From an uncultured Deferribacterales bacterium (GTDB lineage: Bacteria; Chrysiogenota; Deferribacteres; Deferribacterales; Mucispirillaceae), in assembly GCA_947853665.1 (NCBI GenBank), contig CANTXF010000036.1, positions 1 through 41,971 of the forward strand: DNA of 41,971 bases, read 5' to 3'. The stretch's first letter is position 1. Each line of letters starts with the position of its first letter. Positions 4,405 through 40,074 of this stretch are shown piece after piece. The position numbers were made by a program, and so were the translations under genes. Under the pieces are notes generated by a model. It did no database searches. It had not been told where the DNA came from and saw only the letters and a list, made by a program, of their open reading frames with translations.

Positions 4405-5406
4405 TTACTTTATGTTTTTTGAAACGTAATCCCTTATATCGTTTTTCAGACCTTCGGGAAGCGGCACATAGAAAAGTTTTTTTGCCGTTTCGTCTCCCTT
4501 GGAGAAGCTCCAGTCGAAAAATTTAAAAGCGTTTTTGCTTTTTTCCGGGCTGTCTTTCCGCAGGAGTATAAAAGAGGCTCCAGCTATGGGCCAGGAGTCG
4601 TCACCGTCGGAATTGGTCATCCAGAGGCTGTATCCGGCGGTTCTGTCCCATTTAGCGCCGGAAGCGGCGGCGGAGAAAGTCTCCATAGTGGGGGATACGG
4701 CTTTGCCTGCCTTGTTTACGATTTTCGTGTAGGCGATTTTATTCTGGTTGGCATAGGCGAATTCAACGTAGCCTATGGAGTTTTTTATCTGTTTTACGTA
4801 TCCGGCTACCCCGTCGTTTCCTTTGCCGCCTACTCCCGTCGTCCAGTTTACGGTTTTGCCTTTGCCCATTTTTGCCGCCCATTCCTCCGAAGCGCGGGCC
4901 AGATAATTTGTAAACATTGCCGTAGTGCCGGAGCTGTCCGAACGGTGCACTACTGTTATTTTCGCGTCGGGCAGTTTAAGCTCTTTATTAACGGAGGCTA
5001 TTTCCGGGTCGCTCCATTTGGTTATTTTGCCCATGAATATACCGGCTATTATGTCCGGCGTAAGGGTAAGGCCGTTTTCCGCCACTCCGTCTATATTTAC
5101 TACAAGCACTACTCCGCCTATTATGGCCGGAAACTGTATAAGGCCGTTTTTTTCAAGCTCCTGGCTGCTCATGGGTTCGTCGCTCGCCCCGAAATCGACC
5201 GTTTTGGCAAGTATCTGCTTTATGCCTCCGCCGGAGCCTATGCCCTGGTAGTTTACCCTGGTTTTGGTTTCGGCGTTATATCCGTAAGCCCAGGCCGAAT
5301 AGGCGGCGTAAGGGAACGTGGCTCCGGCCCCGTTTATGTTGTTCTGAGCGAAGGCCTGCGCCGCAAACAGCGACATAGTGAAAAACAGCAATAATTTTTT
5401 TAACAT
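4405..5406 (-). CDS. pstS: Periplasmic phosphate-binding protein PstS
   Basis: 333 residues with a Sec signal peptide (KK, hydrophobic core, AFA at 18-20, cleavage before QN). The mature start NGAGATFPY, GIGSGGGIKQI, VDFGASDEP and HRSDSSGTT are the phosphate-binding loops of PstS. It captures orthophosphate in the periplasm and hands it to PstCA. There is no lipobox, so it is soluble, which suits a diderm. Unusually it is the last gene of the locus, 297 bases after phoR, rather than heading the pst operon. It has its own PHO box (5481-5498), a GGAGG ribosome site and a terminator (4336-4366), so it is probably transcribed alone and to a higher level. Confidence 0.95.
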   Translation of the reverse strand: MLKKLLLFFTMSLFAAQAFAQNNINGAGATFPYAAYSAWAYGYNAETKTRVNYQGIGSGGGIKQILAKTVDFGASDEPMSSQELEKNGLIQFPAIIGGVVLVVNIDGVAENGLTLTPDIIAGIFMGKITKWSDPEIASVNKELKLPDAKITVVHRSDSSGTTAMFTNYLARASEEWAAKMGKGKTVNWTTGVGGKGNDGVAGYVKQIKNSIGYVEFAYANQNKIAYTKIVNKAGKAVSPTMETFSAAASGAKWDRTAGYSLWMTNSDGDDSWPIAGASFILLRKDSPEKSKNAFKFFDWSFSKGDETAKKLFYVPLPEGLKNDIRDYVSKNIK

Positions 5407-5480
5407 TTTTTCCTCCGAAATACCGGCTTTACCGCCGATAAGGGATAATATACCGGTTCTGTTCCGCGCTTATCAAATTA

Positions 5481-5498
5481 ATGTAAAATAAATGTAAA
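5481..5498 (-). promoter_or_regulatory. PHO box upstream of pstS
   Basis: On the minus strand two copies of TTTACAT are separated by four bases, giving the 11-bp direct-repeat spacing of a PhoB dimer site. It lies about 75 bases before the pstS start. GATAAG just downstream could be a -10. PhoB is encoded at 7419-8093. Binding is inferred from repeat geometry. Confidence 0.7.
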
Positions 5499-5634
5499 TA
5501 CTTCGCCGTGAAAGAGCCGGCCCTTGTGGAGAGCAGCCGCAGTCTCCGCTTAAGCTGCCGCTGAAAAGACGGCAAAGGGATAAAGCGCAGGCGGCGCGGC
5601 ATAACACGCTCCTGCGGAAAGATGTTTTATGCGG

Positions 5635-5658
5635 ATATGGGCCCGCAGGGGCCCATAT
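5635..5658. other. Perfect 10-bp hairpin between phoR and pstS
   Basis: ATATGGGCCC (5635-5644) pairs with GGGCCCATAT (5649-5658) across GCAG. It sits 46 bases past the phoR stop. On the minus strand no T-run follows, so it is not a standard terminator. It could stall or protect the 3' end of the phoR message, or bind a protein. Confidence 0.55.
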
Positions 5659-5703
5659 ATTTTAAAAAAGACGCGGAATTGTTAAAACGTTTTTTCTTTA
5701 TTT

Positions 5704-7422
5704 TTATTCTTCTTCTTCCGTTTCCTTTTCTCTTAGAGTGGCTTCGAAAGTGTTGCCGCCCATATCGTTTTCACGGACACTGGCTTTTCCGCCGTAAAGC
5801 TCCGCTATATGTTTTACTATGGCTAGCCCCAGGCCGCTGCCGGAGTAGGAGCGGGTTCTTGATTTTGAAACGGTGTAAAACCGTTCGAATATTCTTTTTC
5901 TGTCCGTTTCCGGTATGAGCGGCCCCTCGTCGGACACGGATATTTTAAGCCTGCCGTTGTCCCTGTTTATATCAACCAGTATTTTTTCGCCGGAAGAATA
6001 TTTTATCGCGTTGTTTATAAAGTTTGCCAGCACGCTTTCAAGATGCTCCGCGCGCACGCCGGCCTTTCCGCCGCAGGAGGAGCATATTATTTTTTTTCCG
6101 TTATTAAAATTAAGCAGCACGTCAAGGTCTTTTATTACTTCGTCCACGTCAGCCGGTTTTTTTACCGTAACGGAGCTTCCGGCCGATTCCAGGCGGTGAA
6201 GGTCAAGAATATCGTTTATTATGGAGTTCAGTTTGCCGGAATTTCTGTAAATTGTTTCCGTGAATCTGGAGCGTATGTTTTCGGGCATTGCATCGTCTTT
6301 TAAAATAGTTTCGGAAGCTCCCATTATAAGGGAGAGGGGCGTTTTTATCTCGTGGGCGATATTTCCTATCAGCTCCGTTTTAAAGGCCTCGTACTGAATC
6401 CTGTCCGTAACTTCCTTAAACACCGCCAGTATCTGGCCGTTTATTCTTTTAACGTAAAGCTCGAATATGCCGTCCCTGAATTTAACGCGCCTTCGCTCCG
6501 CGTCGTCCTGCTCCGCCGCCTGTTTGAAGAACATTATAGTTTCCACGTCGTTCATGTCCTTTATAACGTTCATGCCTTTTTCAAGGCGCAGGCCGAGATA
6601 TTCGGAAGCCTGGGCGTTAAAATGGGCTATTTCTCCAGTTTCCGTCAGAAGTATTATCCCTTCGTCCATAGATACGAATATGGAATTAAGCTTTTCCCTT
6701 TCCGTCTCTGCGGATTTTTTTTCCGCGGCCAGGCTCGCGTGCATTTTGTATATAAGCTCCGCTATTTCGTTTACAGCTTCGTCCCGGAATATGGGAGGGT
6801 GGTAGTTTTCGCTTCCCGAGGATACGGCGTCGCCGAATTCCTTAAGGCGTTTCATCGGCTCCGACAGGCGGCGGGCCAGATAGGCCGATACAGCCGCGGA
6901 AATTACAAGCACGGCGGCGAAAAGGATGCCGGAATTTCTCAAGGCGTCCGATTTGATTTTTTCAAGATACGCTCCGTCGGAGGCTATGCGCAGTATACTG
7001 CCGTTTTCGGTTTTTTCCGCGTAATATACGGTAGGATTTCCGGTTGTGGGGCTTTTACGCACGGAATAGAAGGGCTCGCCGTAATAAGCGTTTCTTATTT
7101 CGTCCCGCGTGCGGTGGTTGCTCATGGAGGCCGCCTGTCCGTAAGGCAGGGCGGAATCGTTAAGCACCGTTCCGTCCGGAGCGATTATTGTTATCCTTAC
7201 GCCGCCCGAATTCCCGGCTTTTTTCAGTTTTTCGTAGGCGGCTTCGGAGGTGGGGTTGCTTAAATCTATATTGCGCACCAGGTTCCATTTTTCTTTCATA
7301 GTGGCGTAGAACCGGTCGTTGGCGTTTACAGCCGTTATGTTATAATTAAAGTAAAAGGCCAGGAGCAGCACGCAGGCGGCAGGCAGGTATATTATTGCGA
7401 AAAGCCGTGGAAATGACGTCAT
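5704..7422 (-). CDS. phoR: Phosphate sensor histidine kinase PhoR
   Basis: 572 residues: TM1 about 8-28, a periplasmic region (30-163), TM2 about 164-184, HAMP (about 185-235), a PAS domain (about 244-340) and a kinase core. The phospho-acceptor is His357 in NIAHEIKTPL, the N box NFINNAIKYS is at 467-476, and the G2 box GSGLGLAI at 528-535. The G1 box reads SDEGPLIP, with Leu where DxGxG usually has its second Gly. It phosphorylates PhoB when phosphate is short, with PhoU and PstB holding it off in the known system. ATG overlaps the phoB TGA by four bases. The large periplasmic part, longer than in E. coli PhoR, may sense a further signal (inference). Confidence 0.88.
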   Translation of the reverse strand: MTSFPRLFAIIYLPAACVLLLAFYFNYNITAVNANDRFYATMKEKWNLVRNIDLSNPTSEAAYEKLKKAGNSGGVRITIIAPDGTVLNDSALPYGQAASMSNHRTRDEIRNAYYGEPFYSVRKSPTTGNPTVYYAEKTENGSILRIASDGAYLEKIKSDALRNSGILFAAVLVISAAVSAYLARRLSEPMKRLKEFGDAVSSGSENYHPPIFRDEAVNEIAELIYKMHASLAAEKKSAETEREKLNSIFVSMDEGIILLTETGEIAHFNAQASEYLGLRLEKGMNVIKDMNDVETIMFFKQAAEQDDAERRRVKFRDGIFELYVKRINGQILAVFKEVTDRIQYEAFKTELIGNIAHEIKTPLSLIMGASETILKDDAMPENIRSRFTETIYRNSGKLNSIINDILDLHRLESAGSSVTVKKPADVDEVIKDLDVLLNFNNGKKIICSSCGGKAGVRAEHLESVLANFINNAIKYSSGEKILVDINRDNGRLKISVSDEGPLIPETDRKRIFERFYTVSKSRTRSYSGSGLGLAIVKHIAELYGGKASVRENDMGGNTFEATLREKETEEEE

Positions 7423-8093
7423 TCTTCAACTCCGTAGCCGATTTTAGGTATGGATTTTATTATGTCGCCTTTAGGCCCTAGCTTTTTTCTTAATGTGGAT
7501 ACGTGGGAGTCCACCGTCCTTGTCATGGATTCGGAGTCGTATCCCCAGACTGTGTTCAGAAGCTGGTTTCTTGTAAATATTTTATTCGGGCTTGATATAA
7601 ATATTTTAAGCAGCTCGTATTCCTTATGGGTCAGCCTGATTTCCCCGCCGTCAGAAAAAACCTTGCGCCGGGAGCCGTCCATTTTTATGCCCATATATTC
7701 AAGGGGAGCTCCTTCTTCCGCCTTGACTCCCCTGCGCAGCACCGTGTTTATTTTGGCCGCCAGTATCTCCATACTGAAAGGCTTGGGCAGATAATCGTCC
7801 GCTCCGTGTTCCAGAGCGGTTATTATGTCGTGCTCCGCGTTTTTGGCCGATATTATTATTACCGGAATATTTTTTATCCCCTCTCTGTTCCGCACTATGT
7901 CGAGAAACTGCATCCCTTTAAGTCCCGGCAGCATCAAATCCAGCAGTATAATGTCAACCTTTATGTCGTCCAGCATAATCAGGGCGTCGTTGGCGTTATC
8001 GGCGGACGTTACGGAAAATCCGTTTTTCTGAAGGTTATAAATTACAAGGTCCCGTATGTCCGGGTCGTCCTCAACCAGCATTATTTTGTTCAT
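7419..8093 (-). CDS. phoB: Phosphate response regulator PhoB (OmpR family)
   Basis: 224 residues. The receiver domain (1-118) carries acidic residues Glu8-Asp9-Asp10, phospho-acceptor Asp52 in LLDLMLPG and Lys104 in LPKPF. The C-terminal OmpR-type winged helix (about 130-224) includes RLTHKEYELLKIF, the recognition stretch RTVDSHVSTLRKKLG and the GYGVEE end. It should bind the 11-bp-phased repeats at 5481 and 11401 and activate both transcripts. Its start lies inside phoU with GGAGG six bases ahead, and its end overlaps phoR, so all three are translationally coupled. Confidence 0.9.
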   Translation of the reverse strand: MNKIMLVEDDPDIRDLVIYNLQKNGFSVTSADNANDALIMLDDIKVDIILLDLMLPGLKGMQFLDIVRNREGIKNIPVIIISAKNAEHDIITALEHGADDYLPKPFSMEILAAKINTVLRRGVKAEEGAPLEYMGIKMDGSRRKVFSDGGEIRLTHKEYELLKIFISSPNKIFTRNQLLNTVWGYDSESMTRTVDSHVSTLRKKLGPKGDIIKSIPKIGYGVEE

Positions 8094-8760
8094 CGTCGTC
8101 CTCCGGCTTTTGGTGCCTTAATATTTTACCCGTAACCATAAAAGACACCAGCTCCGCTATGTTTTTGCCGTGGTCGGCTATCCTCTCGAGCCTTCTCGTT
8201 ATATTTATGAGCTTTATCACGGCTTTTGTCTTCGTTACGTCCTCGGCTATATAGGTTATAAGTTCCCTCGTTATCTGGTTCTGATAGGCGTCTATTTTTT
8301 CGTCTTCCTTTATTATCGCCAGCGCCTTTTTTTCATCTTTGGAAAAATAGGCGTCTATTGCTCCTTTTACCATATCGGAAGCCGCCACGGCCATGTTGGG
8401 AAGGTCTATATATTCCTTTACCTTCGGCATGGAGGATAATTTTATGGACTGCTTGCATATATTGCGGCAGTGGTCGCCTATTCTTTCAAGGTCTACGATT
8501 ATGCGCAGGGCCGTTATTATATAGCGCAGGTCGGAAGCTTTAGGCTCGTAAAGGGCTATTATACGGGTGCAAAGTTCGTCTATCTTTACGTCCAGCTCGT
8601 CTATGCGCCTGTCGGACTCCATAATCTGCCTGGCTTTTTCGATATTTCCCGTAACCAGGGTATCCACGGAGCCGCTTATCATCTTTGAAACGGCCTCGCT
8701 CATTTCCGCGAGGTTTCCGCGGAGCTCCATATATTCCGTGTCGGCGGGTTTTGCGGTCAT
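8071..8760 (-). CDS. phoU: Phosphate signalling protein PhoU
   Basis: 229 residues, all-helical, with two PhoU repeats: ELDVKIDELC to IVDLERIGDHCRNI (about 54-103), and KIDAYQNQITRELI to LINITRRLERIADHGKNIAEL. The two ERIGDH/ERIADH sequences are the metal-binding E/DxxxD signatures. PhoU is a cytoplasmic regulator linking the PstSCAB transporter to PhoR, keeping the kinase quiet when phosphate is ample. AGGAGAT precedes the ATG. It follows pstB by 42 bases and overlaps phoB by 23. Confidence 0.93.
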   Translation of the reverse strand: MTAKPADTEYMELRGNLAEMSEAVSKMISGSVDTLVTGNIEKARQIMESDRRIDELDVKIDELCTRIIALYEPKASDLRYIITALRIIVDLERIGDHCRNICKQSIKLSSMPKVKEYIDLPNMAVAASDMVKGAIDAYFSKDEKKALAIIKEDEKIDAYQNQITRELITYIAEDVTKTKAVIKLINITRRLERIADHGKNIAELVSFMVTGKILRHQKPEDDDEQNNAG

Positions 8761-8802
8761 TTTTATCTCCTGATAATGGTTTTTGCGCCGGGTACGGCGT
8801 CG

Positions 8803-9567
8803 TCAGCCGAAACGCCCGGTAATATAATCTTCCGTGAGCTTTTCGTTGGGCGCGGTAAACATAACGTCGGTTTTGTCGTATTCCACAAGCCGCCCCAGAT
8901 ACATAAAAGCGGTGTAATCCGAGATTCTGGCGGCCTGCTGCATGTTGTGCGTTACTATCACGATAGTAACTTTATTTTTTATGCTTGTCATCAGCTCTTC
9001 TATCTTGCCTGTGGAGATAGGGTCGAGAGCGCTTGTAGGCTCGTCGAACAGTATTACGTCCGGCTCCACGGCAAGGGCTCTTGCTATGACAAGGCGCTGC
9101 TGCTGCCCTCCCGAAAGGCCTCCGGCGCTGGTATTCAGGCGGTCGGACACTTCGTCCCACAGGGCCGCCTGCTTAATCGCTTTTTCTATCCTGTCTGCAA
9201 GTTCGGTTTTGTTTTTTATCCCCTTCAGCCGCAGGCCGTAGGCTATGTTGTCGAATATGGTCATGGGAAAGGGCGTTGGCTTTTGGAAAACCATGCCCAT
9301 TTCGGACCGGAGGGACGTTACGTCCGTATCTTTATCCAGAATGTTTTTTCCCTTGAATATTATTTCCCCTTCGTGGCGGTTGCCGGCATAAAGGTCGTGC
9401 ATTCTGTTGAAGCAGCGCAGCAGGGTCGTTTTTCCGCAGCCGGAAGGCCCTATGAGGGCGGTTATCCTGTTTTTTTCCACGTCCATGGAAACGCCCTGCA
9501 CCGCGTGTTTTTTGCCGTAGTAAAAGTTTAAGTCCCTTACCCGCAGTATTACGTCGCGCTGTTCCAT
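8803..9567 (-). CDS. pstB: Phosphate ABC transporter ATPase PstB
   Basis: 254 residues when started at ATG 9567, whose A is shared with the pstA stop and which has GGAGG eleven bases upstream. Upstream in-frame starts lack a ribosome site and would overlap pstA. Walker A is GPSGCGKTT, the signature LSGGQQQR, Walker [13 protein letters not shown] and the switch histidine is in IVTHN. A PstB dimer hydrolyses ATP to drive phosphate through PstC-PstA, and in known systems its state is also read by PhoU. Confidence 0.95.
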
Positions 9568-10418
9568 CAGTTTTTGTACCTCCATTTTATGAACTGCCGC
9601 CCCAGGATGTTTATTATAAGTATGAAAAGCGTTATCACGAAGGATGCGGCCCAGGCCAGCTTTACCCACTCCTCGTAAGGGGAGGCGGCGTATTGGTATA
9701 TTGTTACCGTCAGGGACGGCATCGGGCCGGACATATCGAACGTGAGGAAATTATTGTTGAACGATGTAAAGAGCAGCGGGGCCGTTTCTCCCGCGACCCG
9801 TGCCACGGAAAGAAGGATACCGGTAAAAATACCGGCCGCCGCGCCGCGCCATACGACCTGGGTTATCACTTTATAGTAGGGCGCTCCGAGAGCGAAGGCC
9901 GCTTCCCTCGTCGTCCAGGGCACAAGGCGCATCATCTCCTCCGTCGTCCTGATTACGATAGGCAGCATTATAACGGCCAGCGCCGCCGCTCCGGCCCATC
10001 CGTTGAACCCGCCGAAGGGCTTAACCAGAATGGAGTATATAAACGTGCCTATTATTATGGACGGCATACTTACCGTAATATCGGAGAGTCCGCTTATGAA
10101 CCTTCCTATTTTGGAGAAACGGCCGTATTCGGCGAGAAAGGTGCCTCCCAGTATCCCTAAGGGAACGCCTATCAGCACCGCTCCTCCCGTAAGCATAAGC
10201 TGGCCTGCGAAAGCCTGCCTGAGGCCGCCTTCTGCCCCCGCCATCATGGGAGGCGCCGCGTCCAGCGTAAAAAGCTTCAGATTTATGCTCATAATGCCGT
10301 GGCGCAGCACGTCCGCAAGTATATAAAAAAGGAAAAACAGACCGAGAGCCGCGGCGCAGGCGGATAAGACAAGAGCTGCCGCGTTCGTTATTTTTCTGCG
10401 TGCGTAGCCTGTAATCAT
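9567..10418 (-). CDS. pstA: Phosphate ABC transporter permease PstA
   Basis: 283 residues with six predicted membrane helices (first at about 13-37, last at about 253-271). The cytoplasmic coupling loop holds the EAA motif [20 protein letters not shown], which docks on PstB. Pairs with PstC to form the inner-membrane phosphate channel. Start and stop overlap pstC (four bases, ATGA) and pstB (one base). Confidence 0.93.
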
Positions 10419-11344
10419 CGGTTTACCTTCTTTCTTATGTATATTTTTGCCGCCGTCAGTGTGGCGAAGTTGGCTATGAACAGTATAAAGGCCAGCAAAA
10501 AGAGGCTTGACATATGCAGGCCGGAGGCTTCGTTGAATTCGTTGGCAAGAACCGACGTTATCGTCGTATACGGGTCGAAAAGGGAATTAAGAGGCCCGTG
10601 CCTGTTGCCTATAACGTAGGCTATTGCCATTGTTTCCCCCAGAGCCCTTCCGGCGGCGATTATTATGCCGCTGTTTGTACCCGTTTTGCAGTAGGGCATT
10701 ACTACGTCCCTTATCACTTCCCACTTGGTAGCGCCTATGCCGTAGGCCGATTCCTTCAGTATGGCGGGAGTCTGGGAGAATGTGTCTCTTGCAATGCTTG
10801 CGATATAAGGCACTATCATTATGCTTAAAACGAGGCTTGCTGTAAATATGCTTACTCCGCCAGCGTATTGGGCGCTGAAAAAGGAGCCTATAAAAGGTAT
10901 CTGGCCAAAAGTCCCGCCTATCCATTTCTGCAGCGTGTTTTCTATTAATGGGGCGAAAGTGAAAAGGCCCCACATACCATATATTATGCTTGGAATAGCG
11001 GCCAGAAGCTCTATTGCCATGCTTATGGACCCTTTCAGAAAAGACGGGCACAGCTCCGTTATGAATACGGCTATGCCTATCGCCACTGGCACGGCTATCA
11101 GCAGGGCTCCCGCTGACGTGAGAACTGTGCCGGCAAGAGGTCTGAAGCCGCCGAATACGTTTTCCGCGTAATCCCAGCGCGTTTCCGTTATGAATCTGAA
11201 AAATCCGTATTCCCTCACGGCCGGCGCCGATTCCAGGCAAAGGCAGGCGAAAATGCCCAGCACCGCCATTATTACGGTAAAGGAGGAAAGAAAGGTTACG
11301 CCTGAAAACACGCCGTTAACGGCTCTGGTTCGTTTTGCGTCCAT
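10415..11344 (-). CDS. pstC: Phosphate ABC transporter permease PstC
   Basis: 309 residues with six predicted membrane helices (first about 15-37). The segment EYGFFRFITETRWD and the EAA-type loop ESAYGIGATKWEVIRDVVMP are characteristic of PstC. First gene of the pst-pho transcript; a GAGGA ribosome site precedes the ATG and three PHO-box repeats lie 57-85 bases upstream. Faces the AEC transporter gene at 11541 across a 196-base divergent promoter region. Confidence 0.93.
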   Translation of the reverse strand: MDAKRTRAVNGVFSGVTFLSSFTVIMAVLGIFACLCLESAPAVREYGFFRFITETRWDYAENVFGGFRPLAGTVLTSAGALLIAVPVAIGIAVFITELCPSFLKGSISMAIELLAAIPSIIYGMWGLFTFAPLIENTLQKWIGGTFGQIPFIGSFFSAQYAGGVSIFTASLVLSIMIVPYIASIARDTFSQTPAILKESAYGIGATKWEVIRDVVMPYCKTGTNSGIIIAAGRALGETMAIAYVIGNRHGPLNSLFDPYTTITSVLANEFNEASGLHMSSLFLLAFILFIANFATLTAAKIYIRKKVNR

Positions 11345-11540: not shown

Positions 11541-12473
11541 ATGACGCTGTTTCATTCGATAGAAAGTATTTTTTCCGTATATATCATTATCGCCGTAGGG
11601 TACTTTCTTACAAAAAAAGGTATATTCGATACCGGCACCGGCGGCCAGTTCGCCTGGCTGGTGGTAAACGTTACGTTCCCGGCATATATTATAGCCGCCC
11701 TGCCGGATCAGTTCACCTCCGCAAAAATAGCCGGCGCTTTCTGGGGCATAGTGGCCGCTTTCGCGGCTACGGTGGCGCTTTATCCAATAGGCTATCTTAT
11801 AGCCCGCCTTCTAAAGGTGGAAGAGAGCAAACGCAACGTGTTCGTGGCTATGATAGTTTTTTCCAACGTTGTATTTATCGGCCTTCCGGTAAACTCCGCC
11901 CTTTTCGGAGACAGCTCCGTGGAATTTGTGCTGCAGTATTACGTGGCCAATACGGTAATCTTCTGGACCATAGGCATTTATTTTCTCCAGTCCAATCCGT
12001 CTATGGGGATAAAGCCTAAGATAAACCTTAAGCAGCTGGCTTTAAACCCGCCCCTTCTTGCCACCGTTATAGCCATTGTTCTCGTGCTGCTGGACGTTAA
12101 GGTGCCTTTCGTCATTAAAAACCCTTTTCTGATACTGGGCAACATGACAACGCCTCTGGCCACCTTGTTTATGGGCATAGTGTTTTCGGAGATAAACCTG
12201 AAGGATTTTAAGGCATCAAAAGATATGATCGCCGTTATGGCCGGCAGATTTGCCGTAGCCCCTGCCGTAATCTGGGCTCTCATGGCTTTTACGTCGTTTC
12301 CCCTGCTTATGAAGGAGGTTTTCGTAATACAGGCCGCCATGCCGGTAATGAACCAGGTAACCATATCTAGCAGGTATTACGGCGCGGATTATAAATATTC
12401 CACCGTTATTACTGTATGGTCCTTTATTATAAGCATGTTTGTCATTCCGATTTACGTTATGGTGTTCGGATAG
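11541..12473 (+). CDS. AEC-family permease (auxin efflux carrier superfamily)
   Basis: 310 residues with about ten hydrophobic helices in two halves. VVNVTFPAYIIAALP (near 43-57) and the later AAMPVMNQVTISSRYYGAD hold the conserved crossover prolines and polar residues of the AEC family. Members export or import organic acids such as malate, or amino-acid derivatives; the substrate here is unknown. Ribosome site AGAGGAAT before ATG 11541, preceded by a small GGGG/CCCC hairpin in the leader. It ends in a strong terminator. Proximity to aspartase suggests, weakly, C4-acid traffic. Confidence 0.85.
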   Translation: MTLFHSIESIFSVYIIIAVGYFLTKKGIFDTGTGGQFAWLVVNVTFPAYIIAALPDQFTSAKIAGAFWGIVAAFAATVALYPIGYLIARLLKVEESKRNVFVAMIVFSNVVFIGLPVNSALFGDSSVEFVLQYYVANTVIFWTIGIYFLQSNPSMGIKPKINLKQLALNPPLLATVIAIVLVLLDVKVPFVIKNPFLILGNMTTPLATLFMGIVFSEINLKDFKASKDMIAVMAGRFAVAPAVIWALMAFTSFPLLMKEVFVIQAAMPVMNQVTISSRYYGADYKYSTVITVWSFIISMFVIPIYVMVFG

Positions 12474-12478
12474 GTAAG

Positions 12479-12506
12479 GAAAGCGGCTTTTAAAAGCCGC
12501 TTTTTT
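12479..12506 (+). terminator. Terminator of the AEC gene, palindromic
   Basis: AAGCGGCTTTT (12481-12491) is followed directly by its complement AAAAGCCGCTT (12492-12502) and TTTTT. It sits between two converging genes and could serve both; on the minus strand the trailing T-run is shorter (TTTCC). Confidence 0.8.
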
Positions 12507-13977
12507 ATTCGCATATATTTTTATCCGCTTCTATTTCTTCCGATTTCAGGCCGGCGCATCCGGCTATGGAACTGAAAATCCAGTTTTGGGCGGGTTTTCT
12601 TTTACCGTTTGCCGTTATTTTTTCGTTAAGGCCGGTTTCGTTTTCAAGGGCGGGGGAAACCCATATTCCGAAAACCGTGGTTCCTTCCGCGGCCGCCGGG
12701 CTTTTTTCCGTATCCTCCCCGGCAAGTCCGGTAAATATTATTATCGCCCGCCTATTTTCCAGCTTTCTGGAAGCTTCGTATATGAAGGCGTCTATAAAAT
12801 CCATATAGTTAAGATATTCCGCTTCCCGAATATTTTGCCCGTCCGGCCTTTTTTTATTGAATATTTCCGGGTATCTGGCCTTTACTTCCGGCAGGGTGCC
12901 TTCTATGTTTACCGTTATAAATCCGCCGCCGTTTTCAAGGATTTCCGTTATCGCGTCCATGGCGGCGAATGGGTTTGGAGAGCCGGCGGATTTTATTTCT
13001 TCATACGCGCCGGCCTCTTTACCGGCTTCGGCGGAAAATGGCAGGCTTTTTATAAGGGAATTTGACACGTTTATCCAGTGAGTCGCGTATCCGGCGGAGG
13101 AAAACATGGATACTACCGTTCTTTTTTCCGCCGCCGGGCCGAAATTTTCTTTCGACGCTTTTGTAAGGGCGCACATCATAGATACGCCGGTATCTCCGGA
13201 ACATGGCTCGATGCCGGTAAATATGTTCATATTAACGGAGTCCGCTAGAGGCATTGCGCCGGGTTTTTTAAAAAAGATGTCTGACATTCTGTCGGAAACT
13301 ATAACCAGCACCGTAACGTCTTTTTCTCCCGGCACGGCTTTTAGAGGTTCTTTCTCTGCGGAAAGAATTGCCCTGGACAGGCCGCCTGATATATATTCCT
13401 GCATACCGGCCATATATGCCGCAGGCATCGGCGTAAAATCTTTTCCCGTTTCCGATATGTATCTCGCGGAACCTGCCGCCAGAATAAGAGCGACGGCAAA
13501 AACCTGCCCGCGCCTTACTGCCGATTTATCCGCCGCGAAAAATCTGGCGATCCCGAGGGCAAGCCCTAAAAAGAACATGGAGGCCAGATATACTCCGTTT
13601 TCCGGATTGGAGATAAAAAAAGACACAGTTTCGTTGGAAGTGAAAAGGGGGGCTGTTCTTGACGTAGTATCAAGATGGAGCTCCGAGGCGTAGAGCCTGC
13701 TTACCGCCCCTAAATAAAAAAGTATGGGGCACGACGCCGCGAAAACGTATTTCGACAGCATAAGCAGAAAAAACACCGCCAGGCAGCAGAATATGGACGC
13801 CGCCATAAGGGCCGCGTCTCCGTAAACGCTTTCGGATACCGCTTTTATTCTTGGCCCCTCGAAAAGGGCGGAATAGAGGCAGGATGTAAACAGCAGAAGC
13901 ACGTAATATATTACGGAGCTTTTATCCCATGGTACTTTTGTGAATATGCTGTATTTACGCATCTGGTTTCCCGACAT
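12505..13977 (-). CDS. EptA-like membrane protein with eroded metal site
   Basis: 490 residues. Several membrane helices fill residues 22-170, followed by a periplasmic sulfatase-fold domain as in phosphoethanolamine transferases (EptA, MCR). Family marks kept: VTVLVIVSD (221-229), Cys259 and Cys269 ten residues apart with Thr263 four after the first (the disulfide and nucleophile spacing of MCR-1), AGYATHWINVSN (295-306) and RYPEIF (368-373). Family marks lost: the HxxGSH stretch reads VNIEGTL, and the FSDHGE metal motif reads FTGLAGE (415-421), so Asp and His ligands are missing. The GE of GETxRAD is also absent, though Asp229 could replace it. It is therefore either inactive, with a binding or regulatory role, or uses another chemistry. 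Native codon usage; no frameshift. Confidence 0.65.
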   Translation of the reverse strand: MSGNQMRKYSIFTKVPWDKSSVIYYVLLLFTSCLYSALFEGPRIKAVSESVYGDAALMAASIFCCLAVFFLLMLSKYVFAASCPILFYLGAVSRLYASELHLDTTSRTAPLFTSNETVSFFISNPENGVYLASMFFLGLALGIARFFAADKSAVRRGQVFAVALILAAGSARYISETGKDFTPMPAAYMAGMQEYISGGLSRAILSAEKEPLKAVPGEKDVTVLVIVSDRMSDIFFKKPGAMPLADSVNMNIFTGIEPCSGDTGVSMMCALTKASKENFGPAAEKRTVVSMFSSAGYATHWINVSNSLIKSLPFSAEAGKEAGAYEEIKSAGSPNPFAAMDAITEILENGGGFITVNIEGTLPEVKARYPEIFNKKRPDGQNIREAEYLNYMDFIDAFIYEASRKLENRRAIIIFTGLAGEDTEKSPAAAEGTTVFGIWVSPALENETGLNEKITANGKRKPAQNWIFSSIAGCAGLKSEEIEADKNICE

Positions 13978-14604
13978 ATACTTACCGCCTTAATGATTTC
14001 TCCGCCCCGCTCTGCGGCGGGATGTGGCATATTGAAGCAAACTTACGGAAATTGCAAATATTTTGCATGGTTCGGAGAAAACCGTCAAAGTATTTGGCGG
14101 CTATCCCTTAACGCAGACAGTTATGGCAAATAATTATAATAATGCTTTTTTTATTCGTCAAAAGCATTTAATAATAAACCGTGAGCGGCACACGGCAAAC
14201 TCTCCCGATAAGCCCTTATCGGGCGCATTGCAGGACGCTTCGGCTTATATTCTTCAATGCCCCGGGCCAAGGCAGTAAATATTTTCCGTAATTTTTCATA
14301 AGTCTGCGCAAGGGGGATCGCCGCGTTATAAAAGGAAAAGCATATTTTTATTAGGTTTTATGCCGCTTCCGTCTAAATATCATAATAATGCAAGGCTTTA
14401 AGCCTTTAAATTTATTTAAAATAAAATTGTTCTAAAATTACATAAAAAATTCAGATAATATTATTAAATTGCTATGTATATGTTTGCCTTAAAAAATAAT
14501 GCCATAATCTTTTAAGGTATAATTATTTGATATTTAATGATAAAATATACGTATGGCTATACCGTGCCTGTTTAAAATGATAAACGTTGTTATGCAATAA
14601 AATG
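13978..14604. other. Long divergent intergenic region rich in palindromes
   Basis: No convincing gene lies between the minus-strand EptA-like gene and aspA. The region holds TGCAAA/TTTGCA (14053-14067), the repeat at 14093-14141, a hairpin of AATGCTTTT with AAAAGCATT (14141-14149/14160-14168), and the near-perfect palindrome CCCGATAAGCCCTTATCGGG (14204-14223). After about 14360 the sequence turns very AT-rich. TGCAA-N7-TTGCA (14593-14609) overlaps the aspA -35 box. Confidence 0.55.
14093..14141 (-). repeat. Copy 3 of the ~50-bp intergenic repeat
   Basis: Read on the plus strand it contains ACGCAGACAGTTATGGCAAA followed by TAATTATAATA. Over 49 bases it matches the copy at 38373-38421 at 37 positions without gaps. 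It also matches the copy at 34063-34116 on the opposite strand. It lies about 115 bases upstream of the EptA-like gene in the same relative orientation as the copies before ftsZ and the chemoreceptor. Confidence 0.75.
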
Positions 14605-14633
14605 TTGCAGCCTTATTTTATGTGTGATATTAT
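14605..14633 (+). promoter_or_regulatory. Promoter of aspA
   Basis: TTGCAG (14605-14610), 17 bases, then TATTAT (14628-14633): a good sigma-70-type promoter giving a leader of about 75 bases. The inverted repeat TGCAA-N7-TTGCA overlaps the -35, a position suited to a repressor or activator. Confidence 0.65.
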
Positions 14634-14715
14634 CAATATAGTCGGTAAGGAACATTAAACCGCTTGGGCAGGGTTTTTATATTCTGCCTGAAATAAATAT
14701 TTTAAGGAGCGGAAT

Positions 14716-16140
14716 ATGTCGCAATTTCGTACGGAGCATGATTTTCTCGGGGACAAAGAAGTACCGGTTGACGCCTATTACGGCGTTCAGACAATGCGCG
14801 CTATAGAGAATTTCCCCATTACGGGATACCGTCTTCATCCTGCCATGATAAAGAGCATGGCCATAGTAAAAAAGGCGGCCGCTCTGGCCAACGCCGACGT
14901 GGGCGAAATGCCGAAAGATATTGCCGATGCGATAGCCAAAGCTGCGGACGACGTTATAGCGGGCAAATTCAACGACTGGTTCGTTGTGGATCCTATTCAG
15001 GGAGGGGCAGGCACTTCCATAAACATGAACACGAACGAAGTGATAGCCAACCGCGCCCTTGAAATAATGGGCAAGCCCAAGGGGTCGTATAATATTATTT
15101 CCCCCAACAGCCATGTGAATATGGCTCAGAGCACGAACGACTCCTTTCCTACGGCGGCTCACCTTACCATAGCCTTTCTGCTGGAAGAGCTTCTCAAGGT
15201 TATGGAGGATATGCGCAAAATGTTCGTCAAAAAGGCGGACGAATTCGATAAAATAATCAAAATGGGCCGCACCCACCTTCAGGACGCAGTGCCCATAAGG
15301 CTGGGGCAGGAGTTCAGGGCTTATTCCAGGGTAGTGGCGAGGGATATAAAGCGTATATCGTCCGCCAGAGAGCACATGCTGGAAGTTAACATGGGAGCTA
15401 CTGCTGTAGGAACGGGCCTTAACGCCGATCCGGAATATATAAAGCGGGTCGTCAAATATCTCGGTGAATTTACCGGCTTTCCCATTAAAGGCGCCGAGGA
15501 CCTTGTGGACGGCACTCAGAACTGCGACGGCTACGCGGAAGTTTCGGCTCTTCTTAAAGTTTGTATGATAAGTATGTCCAAAATATGCAACGACCTGCGC
15601 CTTATGGCTTCCGGCCCGCGCTGCGGTCTCAGCGAGCTCAATCTTCCGGCCCGCCAGCCGGGAAGCTCGATTATGCCGGGAAAGGTCAACCCGGTAATGG
15701 CCGAGGTTATCAACCAGATAGCTTTTCAGGTTATAGGAAACGACATTACAGTTACTATGGGCGTAGAAGCCGGCCAGTTCGAGCTGAACGTTATGGAGCC
15801 TGTTTTCGTTTTTAACGTGGTGCAGTCTATCGTTATAATGACCAACGGTTTCAGGGTGTTCACCAAATATCTGCTTACGGACCTTACCGCCAACGCTGAC
15901 AGGATGAAAAACTATGTGGAAAACTCCGTCGGCATAGTTACCGCCATAAACCCCCATGTGGGCTACGAGACCGCTTCGAGGCTGGCCAGAGAGGCCAACG
16001 TTACGGGCAAGCCAATCAGGGAGCTGATATTGAGGGATAAAGTCCTTACGGAGGATGAAATCGACGTTATTCTCGACCCCGTAGGTATGACTACCCCCGG
16101 TATTTCCGGAGCGGAGCTTAAAAAGAATAAAAAGAAATAA
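14716..16140 (+). CDS. aspA: Aspartate ammonia-lyase
   Basis: 474 residues, full length for the fumarase/aspartase superfamily. It converts L-aspartate to fumarate and ammonia in the cytoplasm. Visible marks: RTEHDFLGDKEVP at the N-terminus (typical of aspartase), GGAGTSINMNTNEVIANRA, SPNSHVNMAQSTND, GRTHLQDAVP and the superfamily signature GSSIMPGKVNP with its mobile catalytic serine loop. RTEHD and the HVN/HLQ context favour aspartase over class II fumarase. AAGGAG is six bases before the ATG. A single-gene transcript with its own promoter and a strong terminator. Fumarate made here could feed fumarate respiration (inference). Confidence 0.93.
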   Translation: MSQFRTEHDFLGDKEVPVDAYYGVQTMRAIENFPITGYRLHPAMIKSMAIVKKAAALANADVGEMPKDIADAIAKAADDVIAGKFNDWFVVDPIQGGAGTSINMNTNEVIANRALEIMGKPKGSYNIISPNSHVNMAQSTNDSFPTAAHLTIAFLLEELLKVMEDMRKMFVKKADEFDKIIKMGRTHLQDAVPIRLGQEFRAYSRVVARDIKRISSAREHMLEVNMGATAVGTGLNADPEYIKRVVKYLGEFTGFPIKGAEDLVDGTQNCDGYAEVSALLKVCMISMSKICNDLRLMASGPRCGLSELNLPARQPGSSIMPGKVNPVMAEVINQIAFQVIGNDITVTMGVEAGQFELNVMEPVFVFNVVQSIVIMTNGFRVFTKYLLTDLTANADRMKNYVENSVGIVTAINPHVGYETASRLAREANVTGKPIRELILRDKVLTEDEIDVILDPVGMTTPGISGAELKKNKKK

Positions 16141-35334: not shown

Positions 35335-36401
35335 TGCGAATACTGCATATTATAAACGTGCGGTGGTTCAACGCCACCGCATGGTACGCTTTCAGGCTGG
35401 CGAAAGCGGCCCGGGCGGCGGGGGACGTTTCCGCCGTTGCCGGTCTTCCCTCCTCTCCCGTGGTTAATATGGCTAAGGAGGAGGGGATACCCGTTTTCGA
35501 GGCCGATTTCAATTCCAACAATATTTTCACGATTATAAAAACCGTAAGGAAAACCGCGGCTTTTATAAAGGAATTCAGACCCGATCTGGTGGTATGCCAC
35601 CGGGGGGAGATGTTCTGGTGGTTTTCCCTTTACTCCCGCTTTTTTTCCAAGGGCTGGAAGCTCGTCAGGGTAAGGGGCGACATAAGGCCGCCCACTACTG
35701 ATTTTTTCAGCAGGTTTATGCATAATTCGTGCGCGTCCGCCGTTATAACTTCCGCGGAAATTATCAGGGATAAATTTATCCGCGGCCTTAAAACCCCTCC
35801 GGAAAAAGTGTTTACTGTGTACGGCGGAGTGGATACGGACGTTTTCAGGCCGGACGCCGCCTTAAGGAGCGAAAAAAGGCGCGAGCTGGGCTATTCGCCT
35901 GGCGATTACGTGGTAAGCCTCGTAGGCAGGTTCGACCCGGTGAAAGGACACGAAACATTTTTAAAGGCCTGCTCGATACTCTATAAAAACGGCATGAAAA
36001 ATCTGCGGGTGCTTCTCGTGGGGTTTCCGGAAAATATAAAGACGAAAGACATGGAGCGCATGATAAGGGAAAACGGCCTTGAGGATATAACGTTTATCAC
36101 GGGCCGCAGAAACGACGTGCCAGGCCTTATGAACGCGTCCGATCTGGGGGTTATATCCTCCGTAGGCAGCGAGGCGATATGCCGCGTGGCCATGGAGTTT
36201 ATGGCCTGCGGGGTGCCCGTTGTGGCAAGCGACGCAGGCGTTCTGCCGGAGATGTTTTCCGGCGGCTCCATTTATCCCATGAGGGATCACGCGGCTCTGG
36301 CGGAGCGTATAAAAAACCGCGGCGGCAAGACTGAGCTTTACTGCGAAAAAGATTTTTACCGTAAATTTCTGGCTGCCTGCGGCGAAAAGATCATATCTTA
36401 A
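35334..36401 (+). CDS. Family GT4 glycosyltransferase
   Basis: 355 residues, GT-B fold. N-terminal acceptor domain begins [20 protein letters not shown]; the C-terminal donor domain has [17 protein letters not shown] (about 205-221), [17 protein letters not shown] and the EX7E motif in [20 protein letters not shown]. Likely transfers a hexose or heptose to lipopolysaccharide or another surface glycan at the inner membrane; donor and acceptor are unknown. TAATG overlap with ftsZ means it shares the division transcript, which is unusual. Its last 11 bases overlap the end of the converging chemoreceptor gene. Confidence 0.82.
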
Positions 36402-38313
36402 ATTTACTCAGTATACTGTTTAAGTTCTCCGCCCTTTCCGTAAGGTTCCTTATGGATTCCTCCACGTCGCCTATGCCTTTGCCCCCTTCGGCCATGCCGG
36501 AGGTTACCATGTCCATATTGGCGTTTATCATTTCTATATCTTTCTTTTCCCTTTCTATATATTCCGACACGTTGTCGGAGGAGCTTACGAGGCTGTCCAC
36601 CGTTTCAGACAGGGAGGCGAACACCCCGCCTGTTATTTCTATGCTTGCCACGCCGCTGTCAACGCTTGCAAGCGCGTCCTTCATGCCTTCGGAGGCCGAT
36701 TTGGACTCTTCCTGAAGGGATATTATTATGCGCTCTATCTCTTCGGTGGATTTAGTCGTTCTGTCCGCCAGCTTTCTCACCTCGTCGGCCACTACCGCAA
36801 ACCCCCGGCCCGCGTCTCCCGCCCTTGCGGCTTCTATGGCGGCGTTAAGGGCAAGTAGATTGGTCTGGGACGCTATATCGTTTATTGAATCCAGTATTAT
36901 AGATATCTGGGACGACGATTCGGAAAGCTTCATTATAGTGGCCGAAAGGCTGGAGGTTCTGTCGCTTATATGGTTTATGCTTTCGTTTACGTTGGAAAGG
37001 TTGCCGTTGCCGTCCGCTGCGGTATCGGCCGCTTTTTTCAGCAGCTCCTTGTTGGTTTCGTTGAGGGAGGCCACTTTTTCGAAGCCGGAGGCCATAGTCT
37101 GGGCGGACGAGGTGGCTTCGTCTATCTGGGAGGACTGCACGTGAAAGATACCTTTGAGTTGGTCCATAGAGGAGGACATCCGGGAGTTTTCCGTAATAAG
37201 GGCTTCCGTAGCGTCGCGGACGTCCGATATGGCTTTCTGCAGCTTCTCTATAAAAGCGTTCATGGCGGAGGCGATGTGTCCGAGGTCGTCATTCGTGTTT
37301 ACCGGCAGCCGTTTTGTAAGGTCCGATTCGCCGCTTGCCAGATTTTCCGTTACGGAGCGCAGATTTTTAATATCCCTTAAAGCTATGTTGATTATAACCA
37401 CGATCAGCGTTATTGAAAGGGCGAACATCACAAGGCCCACCGCCGCCGATTTAAAGGCGTTTTCCCTTTGCTGGGCGTAAAGCATGCTCTCTGGTATCTG
37501 ATAGATTACTGCCCAGCCGCTGTTTTCAAGGTTCTTGAAAACCACCGCCGTGGGGCCGTTTTCGCTTTCGTAAGTATATATTTTTCCTTTGTTCGCCGCG
37601 TTCGATATAAATCCGGGAAGGGCGGCAAGCCCTTTGTGCATTTTCGAAACGTTTTTAAGGGTAAGCTCCTTTTTCTCCGTTACGATAAGCGTTCCGTCCA
37701 GGGACATCAGGGCGGCGCGCCCGTCTATGCCCATGTTGGAGGTTTTAAGTATGTTATCCAGATAGTCGAATTCAAAATCTATGGAAAAAACGCCTTGCGT
37801 TTTCCCGTTTATTTTTATAGGGACGCAGAGGGTTACGCAGGGCTTGCCGGTGGTGGAATCCGTGTAAGGCTCCGATACGTAAACCCCTTCCGTTTTGCGG
37901 GCGTTTATATACCAGTCCCTTGTGCGGTGGTCGTACCCTTCCGGAATGCTGCCCACTATTCCGCTCATTACCGTTCCGTCGTCGAAGCCTATGGTAACGT
38001 CCAGGATATCAAGGTTTTCCACCATGTTGGAAGCCATTTTCTGGTATCTGAACACGTCGGACGGTTTTTCAAGCTCCATAACGTCCGCGGCAAGGGCGAC
38101 GGTCTTGCCGTAGCTTGCCAGCCACTCGTCCGTTCTGCCTGCCATGCTTGATATGATACTTGTAATATTGTTATTTATCAGAGACCTGGAATATATCGAG
38201 TTGTTATAGTAGCCGTAAGGCACTATTATGGCTATCATAAGCGCCATACATCCTATAACGGCTCCCAGTATTTTTATTTTCAGACTTATGTTGAGAAGCG
38301 AACGTATTTTCAT
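36391..38313 (-). CDS. Methyl-accepting chemotaxis protein with amino-acid dCache
   Basis: 640 residues: TM1 (about 14-34), periplasmic double Cache (about 36-285), TM2 (about 289-311), HAMP (about 312-365) and the signalling domain, with the conserved tip in [20 protein letters not shown] and [15 protein letters not shown]. Tyr127, Arg132, Trp134, Tyr135, Tyr150, Asp152 and Asp179 match in identity and spacing the ligand motif of amino-acid dCache domains (as in PctA). It should sense an amino acid in the periplasm and control CheA. No CheR-binding pentapeptide at the end (stops at SKFKI). Its stop lies inside the glycosyltransferase gene; a copy of the intergenic repeat lies 59 bases before its start. 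Confidence 0.93.
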
Positions 38314-38429: not shown

Positions 38430-38601
38430 GCGTCGTTTGCCGTCAGACCGGCGCGCGGCGGCAGATTCCTGCAATACCCTTATCTTATACGGTTCCTTGC
38501 AGGGCTTCCGCCGTCGTATTAGTTAAGTATATGAATATATACTATAAATATTCGGGGGGGGGCAAGTCTTTCTTTGAAAAAGGCGCGATATTTTCAGGAG
38601 T
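38430..38601. other. Intergenic sequence between LRR and chemoreceptor genes
   Basis: AGTATAT-GAAT-ATATACT (38526-38543) is an inverted repeat, followed by a run of ten G at 38554-38563. No terminator with a clear stem is visible after the LRR gene. Confidence 0.4.
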
Positions 38602-40074
38602 TCATTTTTTCCTGCGCAGGCCCCTAACCAGCAGCAGAGCAGCCAGCGCCGCCCATGCGGCGTCCGCCGCCGGAAGCGCTCCGTAAGGCAGGGCTGAGCA
38701 GCCTCCGCCCGCGGTGGATTCGAATTCGCTCAATGTGATATTGTCGTCCTCCAGGGTGTTTTTGCCGTTTACAAGGTCGGAATTTACAACGGTCTGATTA
38801 TCCGGAAAAGCGTCCTCCGGATAATTTTCGCACTGGTGGTCGAGGCGCAGTATCTGTATATCGTTTATGTATGGCACTTTGCGATAGTTTTCTCTCGGTA
38901 TGCAGTTGTAGCTTAAGCCAAGCTCCTGGATATTGGCAGTAAGGGTAAGATCCGCCACGGACGAAATATCTTTTATCACGTTATAATCGAAAACCAGACG
39001 TTTAGCCTTTTTCATGCGGGAAAGAACGCTTACGTCGCTTACACTGTTGTTCAGAAGCTGGAGGTCTCTCAGCTCCGTAAGGTTGTCCAGAGGCGAGATA
39101 TCGCTTATTCTGTTGCTGCTTCCTACAAGGACGTTGAGCCTTGTAAGATTATCCAGAGGGGAAAGGCTCGTTACCATATTTATGCTGAAATCAAGGCCGG
39201 AAAGCTCCGTCATGCCTGAAAGGGGAGAAAGATCGCTTATCCTGTTGTCTCTCAGGCTGAGATATGTCATGTGTATCATGCCGGAAAGGGGGGATATATC
39301 CGTTATTTTATTTCCCTGGAGGCTCAATACCCTCATTCTTACAAGAGAGCCCATAGGGGTTATATCTTTTATGTAATCCGGCCCCTGGTATTCCAGCGAC
39401 AGGGTTTCCAGGGAATTTATAAATGGTATGAATTCCAGATCCGTAACCCTGTTTCCTTTAAGGTCCAGATTCTTTAGCTTTTTCATGCGGGCGAGAAAGC
39501 CTATTTCAGATATTTCGGAATATGGTATTTCGAGAGTTTCAAGCCCGGTCAGGTTCCTTATGGGGGCCAGGCTTTCCACCTTCGTTCCCTTAAGGCTGAA
39601 GGAGAGGCTTTTCAGGTTGGGAAATTGCTGCAGGCCGTCCAGGCTTGTGATTTCCGGGTCGTCGCATTCTATTGCGGTTATCAGGGCGGCCTGTCCGCAC
39701 AGCATGGGCCAGCGCACCGCGTTCGAATATTTGCGCACGCAGTTTTCAAGCCGGGTTCCGTAAGGAAAAAGCACCGGGTCGGACGGGTTTTCGCAGGAAT
39801 AGTTGTCGTAAACTCCGGCAAAAAGTTCTTTGAGCTTTTTTACCGTTTCGTTGTCCTCCGTTTCGTTATCCGTTTCATTGTCCGTAGAGTTGTCCGGCGT
39901 GTTTTCGGTAGAGTTATCCGTCGAATTGTCCGTGGCGTTGTCGCTGGAATTATCGGTAGAGTTGTCGGTAATGCCGCCTCCTTCCGAGGGCGGTACGGCG
40001 TCATCCCCGTACATACGGGGAACCGCCAGAAGCGCAAGCTGTAATGTCATAAGCACGGCAACGATTATACGCAT
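38602..40074 (-). CDS. Surface leucine-rich-repeat protein with sorting-type C-terminus
   Basis: 490 residues: Sec signal (1-22 or so); an Asn/Asp/Thr linker of four-residue DNST-like units (about 36-76); a cap with four Cys; internalin-type LRRs of 22 residues (about 130-420), for example NKITDISPLSGMIHMTYLSL. The tail holds GGGCS (456-460), a hydrophobic stretch (AAWAALAALLLV) and RGLRRKK. That Gly-Cys motif, membrane helix and basic end is the plan of the MYXO-CTERM, JDVT-CTERM and Synerg-CTERM sorting signals, which are cut by membrane proteases. I expect a cell-surface adhesin or receptor; the partner protease is not in this window. An LRR variant of unknown ligand. Confidence 0.75.
   Translation of the reverse strand: MRIIVAVLMTLQLALLAVPRMYGDDAVPPSEGGGITDNSTDNSSDNATDNSTDNSTENTPDNSTDNETDNETEDNETVKKLKELFAGVYDNYSCENPSDPVLFPYGTRLENCVRKYSNAVRWPMLCGQAALITAIECDDPEITSLDGLQQFPNLKSLSFSLKGTKVESLAPIRNLTGLETLEIPYSEISEIGFLARMKKLKNLDLKGNRVTDLEFIPFINSLETLSLEYQGPDYIKDITPMGSLVRMRVLSLQGNKITDISPLSGMIHMTYLSLRDNRISDLSPLSGMTELSGLDFSINMVTSLSPLDNLTRLNVLVGSSNRISDISPLDNLTELRDLQLLNNSVSDVSVLSRMKKAKRLVFDYNVIKDISSVADLTLTANIQELGLSYNCIPRENYRKVPYINDIQILRLDHQCENYPEDAFPDNQTVVNSDLVNGKNTLEDDNITLSEFESTAGGGCSALPYGALPAADAAWAALAALLLVRGLRRKK
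39845..39970 (-). repeat. In-frame 12-nt tandem repeat inside the LRR gene
   Basis: Imperfect 12-base units encode repeats of Asp-Asn-Ser-Thr and its variants (NSS, NAT, NTP, NET). Unit number can change by slippage without breaking the frame, so linker length may vary between strains. Confidence 0.65.

Follow-up and report, generated by a model that had tools for sequence, protein, structure and literature searches.

The EptA/MCR family, which includes the colistin-resistance enzyme MCR-1, adds phosphoethanolamine to lipid A. EptA, EptC, and MCR consist of a five-helix membrane domain and a periplasmic alkaline-phosphatase-type domain. In MCR-1, replacing any one of 17 essential residues by alanine cuts polymyxin resistance 8- to 32-fold, the E246D variant behaves like these alanine mutants, and docking places Thr112 and Glu116 in contact with the PE head group or around it (PMC8593676). 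YejM/PbgA/LapC, a further membrane protein in this superfamily, has an active site that is disabled or reduced. According to PMC7773988 and PMC6921655, its membrane domain bears the essential function, its periplasmic domain is dispensable, and the protein restrains LapB/FtsH degradation of LpxC. A dead or reduced superfamily member with a regulatory role is known in YejM, which is itself disputed: in PMC7576196, YejM is assigned Mg2+ and phosphatase activity despite an incomplete ligand set, and it retains Thr302, Asp268, Asn403, Arg451, and His468. No description of a conserved zinc-less EptA, or of a protein of the type reported below, was found in the open-access literature searched.

The gene in the window and the fold of its product

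The window, the whole stretch of 41,971 nucleotides analyzed here, is contig C36 of a genome of 2.43 Mb in 68 contigs (Mucispirillaceae, Deferribacterota), and the genome sets searched contained no second genome of its genus. It carries the gene for a protein designated P0001. An earlier note on this DNA had described the reading frame as intact over 490 codons, which was confirmed; the gene lies on the minus strand, a point missing from that note. The features of the locus are as follows.

12505..13977, minus strand: coding sequence of the pseudo-phosphoethanolamine transferase P0001, 490 aa, ATG start, without internal stop
13438..13977, minus strand: membrane domain, residues 1–180, five long helices in the predicted model
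12508..13326, minus strand: periplasmic EptA/MCR-fold domain, residues 218–490, from the predicted model and structure matches
13291..13293, minus strand: Asp229 (= MCR-1 Glu246), the sole MCR-1 zinc-ligand side chain still acidic, followed by Arg230 (alignment)
13171..13203, minus strand: C259-x3-T263-x5-C269, former nucleophile and disulfide; Asp/Glu, Asn, and Ala in eight relatives (alignment)
13072..13095, minus strand: AGYATHWI, residues 295–302, bearing the only periplasmic His (H300, non-conserved; alignment)
12892..12912, minus strand: VNIEGTL, residues 356–362, in place of HxxGSH; N357, E359, and G360 invariant in 9/9 (alignment)
12859..12876, minus strand: RYPEIF, residues 368–373; R368 and Y369 invariant in 9/9 (alignment)
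12715..12735, minus strand: FTGLAGE, residues 415–421, in place of SDHGE; G417, L418, G420, and E421 invariant in 9/9 (alignment)
12511..12558, minus strand: C474 and C489, C-terminal Cys pair, invariant in 9/9 and also found in several active-type relatives (alignment)
14133..14161, minus strand: sigma-70-like promoter TTGACG-17-TATAAT, 11/12, about 155 nt upstream of the start codon, a consensus match only

The promoter scan of 12300–14800 gave 10 sites against 5.7 ± 2.3 in shuffled sequences. The G+C contents at the three codon positions of the P0001 gene were 0.50, 0.44, and 0.52, respectively, close to those of six neighboring genes. The gene is flanked by genes encoding an AEC-family transporter (11541–12473, PF03547) and an aspartase/fumarase-type lyase (14716–16140, PF00206). 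Past the AEC transporter gene, a phosphate-uptake locus occupies 4405–11344 on the minus strand and encodes a substrate-binding protein, histidine kinase, response regulator, PhoU, ABC ATPase, and two permeases. No RNA family reached the Rfam gathering score in the window.

Sequence searches with P0001 gave low scores. Pfam matched Sulfatase (PF00884) at an E-value of 2.4e-5 and 24.3 bits, and the full-length relatives L003 and L007 scored 19.8 and 29.9 bits (cut-off, 25). The best NCBIfam model, CptA, gave 16.5 bits against a cut-off of 404; this score alone says little, because the active-type paralogue L089 was likewise below the NCBIfam cut-offs (193 bits vs 500). In the PDB sequence search, Escherichia coli EptC was matched with an E-value of 0.33 by P0001 and of 0.0012 by a profile of P0001 and its eight relatives.

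The fold was assigned from two predicted models. The model built from these nine altered sequences only had a mean pLDDT of 57.5, and its best matches were EptC and EptA with Z scores of 22.0 and 21.8, respectively, followed by phosphoglycerate mutase (Z 16.6) as the first match of another family. The resemblance is therefore not a matter of chance. The deeper model, to which 18 active-type sequences were added, had a mean pLDDT of 79.9; these sequences bias it toward the EptA fold, and the nine-sequence model served as the independent check. The deeper model matched full-length EptA (5fgn) with a VIA-align Z of 27.6 over 447 residues and an rmsd of 5.5, the soluble domains of EptA (4kay, Z 28.1) and EptC (4tn0, Z 27.8) with Z in the range 27.7–28.1, and the MCR-1 catalytic domain with Z of about 25, compared with 19.6 over 245 residues for YejM (6vat). 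Its top Foldseek matches were 5fgn (E 4e-15) and MCR-1 9nww (E 3e-14). The five long helices (residues 19–47, 51–73, 76–100, 125–147, and 157–177 in the predicted model) occupy the positions of the EptA membrane helices, and the periplasmic part has the alkaline-phosphatase-type domain, so that the model has both parts of the EptA/MCR fold.

Loss of catalytic residues

Statements on the active site were read from alignment columns. MCR-1 positions were mapped via L113, an active-type protein above the NCBIfam cut-off (632 bits), and the equivalents of MCR-1 Cys281 and Cys291 were set by motif spacing, with the numbering taken from the earlier note. At the sites of MCR-1 Glu246, Thr247, Thr285, His395, Asp465, His466, and Glu468, P0001 has Asp229, Arg230, Thr263, Leu362, Leu418, Ala419, and Glu421, respectively, and the His478 site is a gap. 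In all nine pseudoenzyme rows, the Asp465 site is Leu, the His478 site is a gap, and the Glu468 equivalent is present. The His466 site is Ala in P0001 and Glu in 8/8 Mucispirillum sequences, and the His395 site is Leu in P0001 and Ala or Ser in the relatives. The zinc ligands Glu246/Asp465/His466 are thus Asp/Leu/Ala in P0001 and Asp/Leu/Glu in the relatives, and the substrate-site pair His395 and His478 is missing from both. The Glu246 site is Asp in all eight pseudoenzyme rows that cover it, and also in 5 of the 18 active-type rows (three full-length sequences and two catalytic pieces). The Thr247 site is Arg in P0001 and Lys in the seven other rows covering it; this Arg or Lys could occupy the emptied metal site. 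The sites of Thr112 and Glu116 are Asn115 and Ser119 in P0001, with Asn/His and Ser/Lys as the range in the family.

The alignment of Cys259, Thr263, and Cys269 with MCR-1 Cys281, Thr285, and Cys291, the retained RYPEIF and AGYATHWI, and the replacement of HxxGSH by VNIEGTL and of SDHGE by FTGLAGE all agreed with the earlier note. That note had also proposed altered chemistry in a subfamily retaining the nucleophile and the disulfide, and here the relatives speak against it: the nucleophile Thr, present in P0001, is Asn in 8/8, and the two active-site Cys residues are replaced by Asp/Glu and Ala in 8/8. Judged by the alignment, the retained nucleophile and disulfide are a relic in the genome of the window, not a trait of the subfamily. 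The altered motifs, in contrast, are invariant across nine sequences from two genera as NxEGxxP...RY and GLxGE and, as aligned, are new conserved motifs; further residues invariant in 9/9 include P363, S333-P334-N335, and W439-V440-S441. This conservation and the low dN/dS among the relatives (below) bear out the suggestion of a pseudoenzyme maintained by selection, and the comparison of homologues excluded random decay.

P0001 contains just the histidines H101 and H300, with H300 as the sole one in the periplasmic domain; across the nine pseudoenzymes, no His position is invariant. The earlier note had left room for other Asp or His residues at the metal positions. A His-containing zinc site is excluded, but the Glu at the His466 site in all eight Mucispirillum sequences may contribute to a weak Mg/Ca site in those relatives. 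The acidic ligand site kept as Asp, the presence of two histidines only, and the loss of the nucleophile and both Cys in the relatives are points beyond that note. Since the ligand sites and, in the relatives, the nucleophile are altered, and alanine at essential residues or E246D lowers resistance in MCR-1, EptA-type zinc catalysis has very likely been lost.

All 18 active-type rows kept Thr285, His395, Asp465, and His466. Sixteen of them came from 21 ORFs selected by the motif [SATC]DH[GN] (L122, L123, L124, L127, and L109 were omitted, and the catalytic pieces L077 and L079 were added), so that the retention of Asp465 and His466 is partly a matter of selection of the rows, which does not affect that of Thr285 and His395. 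The EptA-type paralogue in the window's own genome (L002/L089, contig C17) resembles P0001 in having Asp at the Glu246 site and the C-terminal Cys pair; unlike P0001, with which it shares 20% identity, it retains the nucleophile, the disulfide, and the SDHG and GSH motifs.

Constraint on the membrane domain in Mucispirillaceae

Full-length orthologues with 32–34% identity to P0001 were found in seven Mucispirillum genomes, and a partial one in an eighth, where it is cut by the contig end (L010; not used for dN/dS, domain comparison, or tree). Wherever no contig end interrupts the gene, its frame is intact and full-length (8/8 genomes). The gene was absent from 2 of 10 Mucispirillum genomes, with completeness of 75% and 86%. 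No copy was found outside Mucispirillaceae in the 50 genomes searched from the phylum, which include 15 Mucispirillaceae, and no relative of P0001 was found among the viral contigs searched; the matches in genome G017 are the active-type enzyme, not the pseudoenzyme. The AEC transporter gene flanks the pseudoenzyme gene in 8/8 Mucispirillum loci and the lyase gene does so in all seven full ones, with neighbors recognized by sequence in the relatives and by Pfam in the window. In Mucispirillum, a cupin gene (L022:9431–9925; Cupin_5, PF06172, as tested on this copy only) overlaps the 3′ end of the pseudoenzyme gene, and an ORF of 164–170 aa with a similar start lies at this position in 8/8 Mucispirillum loci (L003–L010). 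The window has no cupin gene between the pseudoenzyme and AEC transporter genes.

Purifying selection on the Mucispirillum orthologues is clear: dN/dS was 0.075–0.231 in the 7 of 21 pairs with dS < 1, and 0.075–0.330 in all 21. These values cover the Mucispirillum relatives, and P0001 itself is saturated at synonymous sites against all of them (pS 0.80–0.84). Between P0001 and the seven full orthologues, identity was 40.6–42.9% in the membrane domain and 27.3–30.3% in the periplasmic domain, with the membrane domain higher in 7/7. Active-type enzymes showed the reverse, with the periplasmic domain better conserved in 27/27 pairs; these pairs came from 11 of the 18 rows (four Deferribacterota rows gave 6 pairs and seven other rows gave 21), and their membrane alignments, at 13–30% identity, are less certain than the catalytic ones. 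Of 20 Mucispirillum pairs (the pair L008–L009, with periplasmic dS = 0, was excluded), 18 had the lower dN/dS in the membrane part. In the closest pairs, L007–L008 and L007–L009, dN/dS was higher in the membrane part, opposite to the other pairs. L008 (G004) and L009 (G007) look mosaic, with periplasmic halves at dS 0 and membrane halves at dS 1.1, which points to between-species recombination.

A third Mucispirillaceae genus has a membrane-domain homologue of 154 aa in 4/4 genomes. It aligned with residues 9–183 of P0001 (hhalign probability 96.8, E 2.8e-10). Its N-terminal [RK]QYRSFTKxxWD is similar to RKYSIFTKVPWD in P0001, and [RK]GQxF in the last helix is common to the two proteins. At E ≤ 0.001, its profile retrieved from the 50 genomes of the phylum only its own four sequences and two pseudoenzymes, and no active-type enzymes; Pfam gave no match for the copy L013. 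The dN/dS of the homologue was 0.10–0.21 (6 pairs). Its gene adjoins an FAD-oxidase gene in 4/4 genomes and an SLC13-type transporter gene in the 3/3 covered (names by sequence reading), with no aspartase gene alongside. Because this locus differs, truncation of the pseudoenzyme gene is no more than a possible source of the homologue. Neither a full-length pseudoenzyme match nor an EptA-type match (0/4) was found in these four genomes.

A single maximum-likelihood tree of 30 rows nested the pseudoenzymes as one clade (support 100/100) within the EptA-type enzymes, with a branch length of 1.95 changes per column. This clade is probably sister to the Deferribacterota EptA paralogues, with weak support (83/73); six rows, P0001 included, have deviating letter make-up, the branches are long, and the fine placement is unsure. 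The DUF3413 protein of Mucispirillum G004 (L111) grouped 100/100 with the long sulfatase-family rows L097 and L099, apart from the pseudoenzymes.

Possible roles of the pseudoenzyme and its active-type paralogues

The pseudoenzymes have EptA, EptC, and MCR as their first PDB matches and share the two-domain architecture of these enzymes. Unlike them, they have no zinc site in 9/9 and no nucleophile and active-site disulfide in 8/9, and their membrane half is conserved better than the catalytic half. With YejM/PbgA/LapC they have in common the superfamily, the membrane location, and the disabled or reduced active site. P0001, however, has no DUF3413 (PF11893 was not among its Pfam matches up to E 1, and its own genome gave 0 matches), is structurally farther from YejM than from EptA (Z 19.6 vs 28.1), and stands apart in the tree. 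As the tree places the DUF3413 protein elsewhere, the likeness to YejM is most likely one of kind, not of descent.

We consider the best explanation, with a probability of roughly 45%, to be that P0001 represents a conserved EptA-derived pseudoenzyme that would now act as an inner-membrane lipid or LPS sensor and regulator like YejM/PbgA. As sequence, model, and tree show, an EptA-type phosphoethanolamine transferase was duplicated and its zinc site lost in an ancestor of Mucispirillaceae. The conservation pattern shows that the zinc-less copy has since been retained for a non-catalytic function that depends more on the membrane domain than on the periplasmic one. By analogy with YejM/PbgA/LapC and LapB, we infer a regulatory or sensing role in which the emptied periplasmic pocket may bind a lipid head group as ligand and the membrane helices may relay the signal to a partner. 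If this is true, control of LPS output outside enterobacteria could be studied in a cultivated gut bacterium, since Mucispirillum schaedleri is in culture, and proteins annotated as MCR/EptA-like would need a check of their catalytic residues before being called colistin-resistance enzymes.

A more far-reaching version, which we regard as doubtful, is that a second, independent YejM-like sensor of envelope lipids was built from an EptA-type rather than a YejM-lineage enzyme. The series proposed under it would run in four stages from an active enzyme, through a zinc-less form with a relic nucleophile (the genome of the window) and a nucleophile-less form (Mucispirillum), to the membrane domain alone (the third genus). 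Such a lineage series would locate the useful part of a dead enzyme in its membrane domain, the constrained half, opposite to the pattern of active-type pairs.

The genes for LPS control were surveyed in the 15 Mucispirillaceae genomes. LpxC was found in 15/15. A LapB-like TPR protein of 368–374 codons was found in 13/15, while G012 had a 313-codon frame and G013 had none; the search was unspecific, as no Mucispirillaceae genome reached the 363-bit cut-off and 13 of 14 controls also matched, one of them above the cut-off. L129, the sole LapB-like protein tested for it, has the LapB zinc ribbon (26.0 bits, cut-off 25.7). DUF3413 (YejM) was found in 1/15. This genome setting is circumstantial, and the vacant YejM slot is weak evidence, because LapB-like proteins without YejM are common. 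The single DUF3413 (YejM-type) protein, in Mucispirillum G004 (L085, G004:C11:4076–4738), is encoded on another contig than the pseudo-EptA of that genome.

Second in rank, though on the unlikely side, is a non-catalytic membrane protein that binds or moves lipid as a scaffold or translocator and has no regulatory role. Conservation of the membrane domain would also fit a lipid-binding or transport role, and the membrane-only homologue kept in the third genus is in line with it; the changes at the Thr112 and Glu116 sites imply that any bound lipid would be handled differently. Against it stands the lack of a transporter signature, as Pfam gave Sulfatase only in the full-length proteins and nothing in L013.

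Improbable, and less likely than lipid binding, is that the protein is still an enzyme that uses an altered metal, Mg or Ca held via the Asp229 position together with Asn and Glu in Mucispirillum, or metal-free chemistry. The Asp, Asn, and Glu at three old metal-site positions may form a hard-metal (weak Mg/Ca) site in the Mucispirillum relatives, the Glu468 equivalent is kept in 9/9, and YejM with incomplete ligands is reported as a Mg-dependent phosphatase in PMC7576196. However, no sequence has the nucleophile and a second metal ligand together (Thr with Leu/Ala here, Asn with Leu/Glu in Mucispirillum), and no His is invariant. E246D alone disables MCR-1 (PMC8593676), yet active-type rows have Asp at this site as well.

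An equally improbable role, again less likely than lipid binding, is that of an inactive partner or decoy modulating the cell's own active EptA-type enzyme. The genome of the window has two active-type paralogues (contigs C17 and C27), and several Mucispirillum genomes have one. But G002, a single-contig Mucispirillum genome that is 98% complete, has the pseudoenzyme and gave no match in two EptA-type searches, which likewise found nothing in the four genomes of the third genus, where the membrane-only homologue occurs; an obligate partner of active EptA is rejected on these search results. A decaying pseudogene or an assembly artefact, which active-site loss and the long branch might suggest, is scarcely credible, and decay is refuted for the pseudoenzyme family by the intact frames, a dN/dS well under 1, and the conservation of both gene order and the new motifs.

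The active-type EptA paralogues of Mucispirillum showed a further feature. A run of 9–10 G lies at the junction of the membrane and catalytic domains in L077 (position 1487), L078 (1485), L079 (2665), and L074 (1895), from genomes G011, G008, G004, and G013, respectively. In G011, G008, and G004, the frame is broken at the run into a membrane-domain ORF of 162–164 aa and a separate catalytic ORF. The G013 copy has the run in one open frame, and the intact L075 and L076 (G007 and G009) have no run of at least 7. From the sequences, these frame breaks look like phase variation of a phosphoethanolamine transferase. The window itself has a single G/C run of at least 8, a nine-G run at 38554–38562, which follows the stop of the ORF at 38602–40074 by about 40 nt and precedes the ORF at 36391–38313 by about 240 nt (both ORFs on the minus strand).
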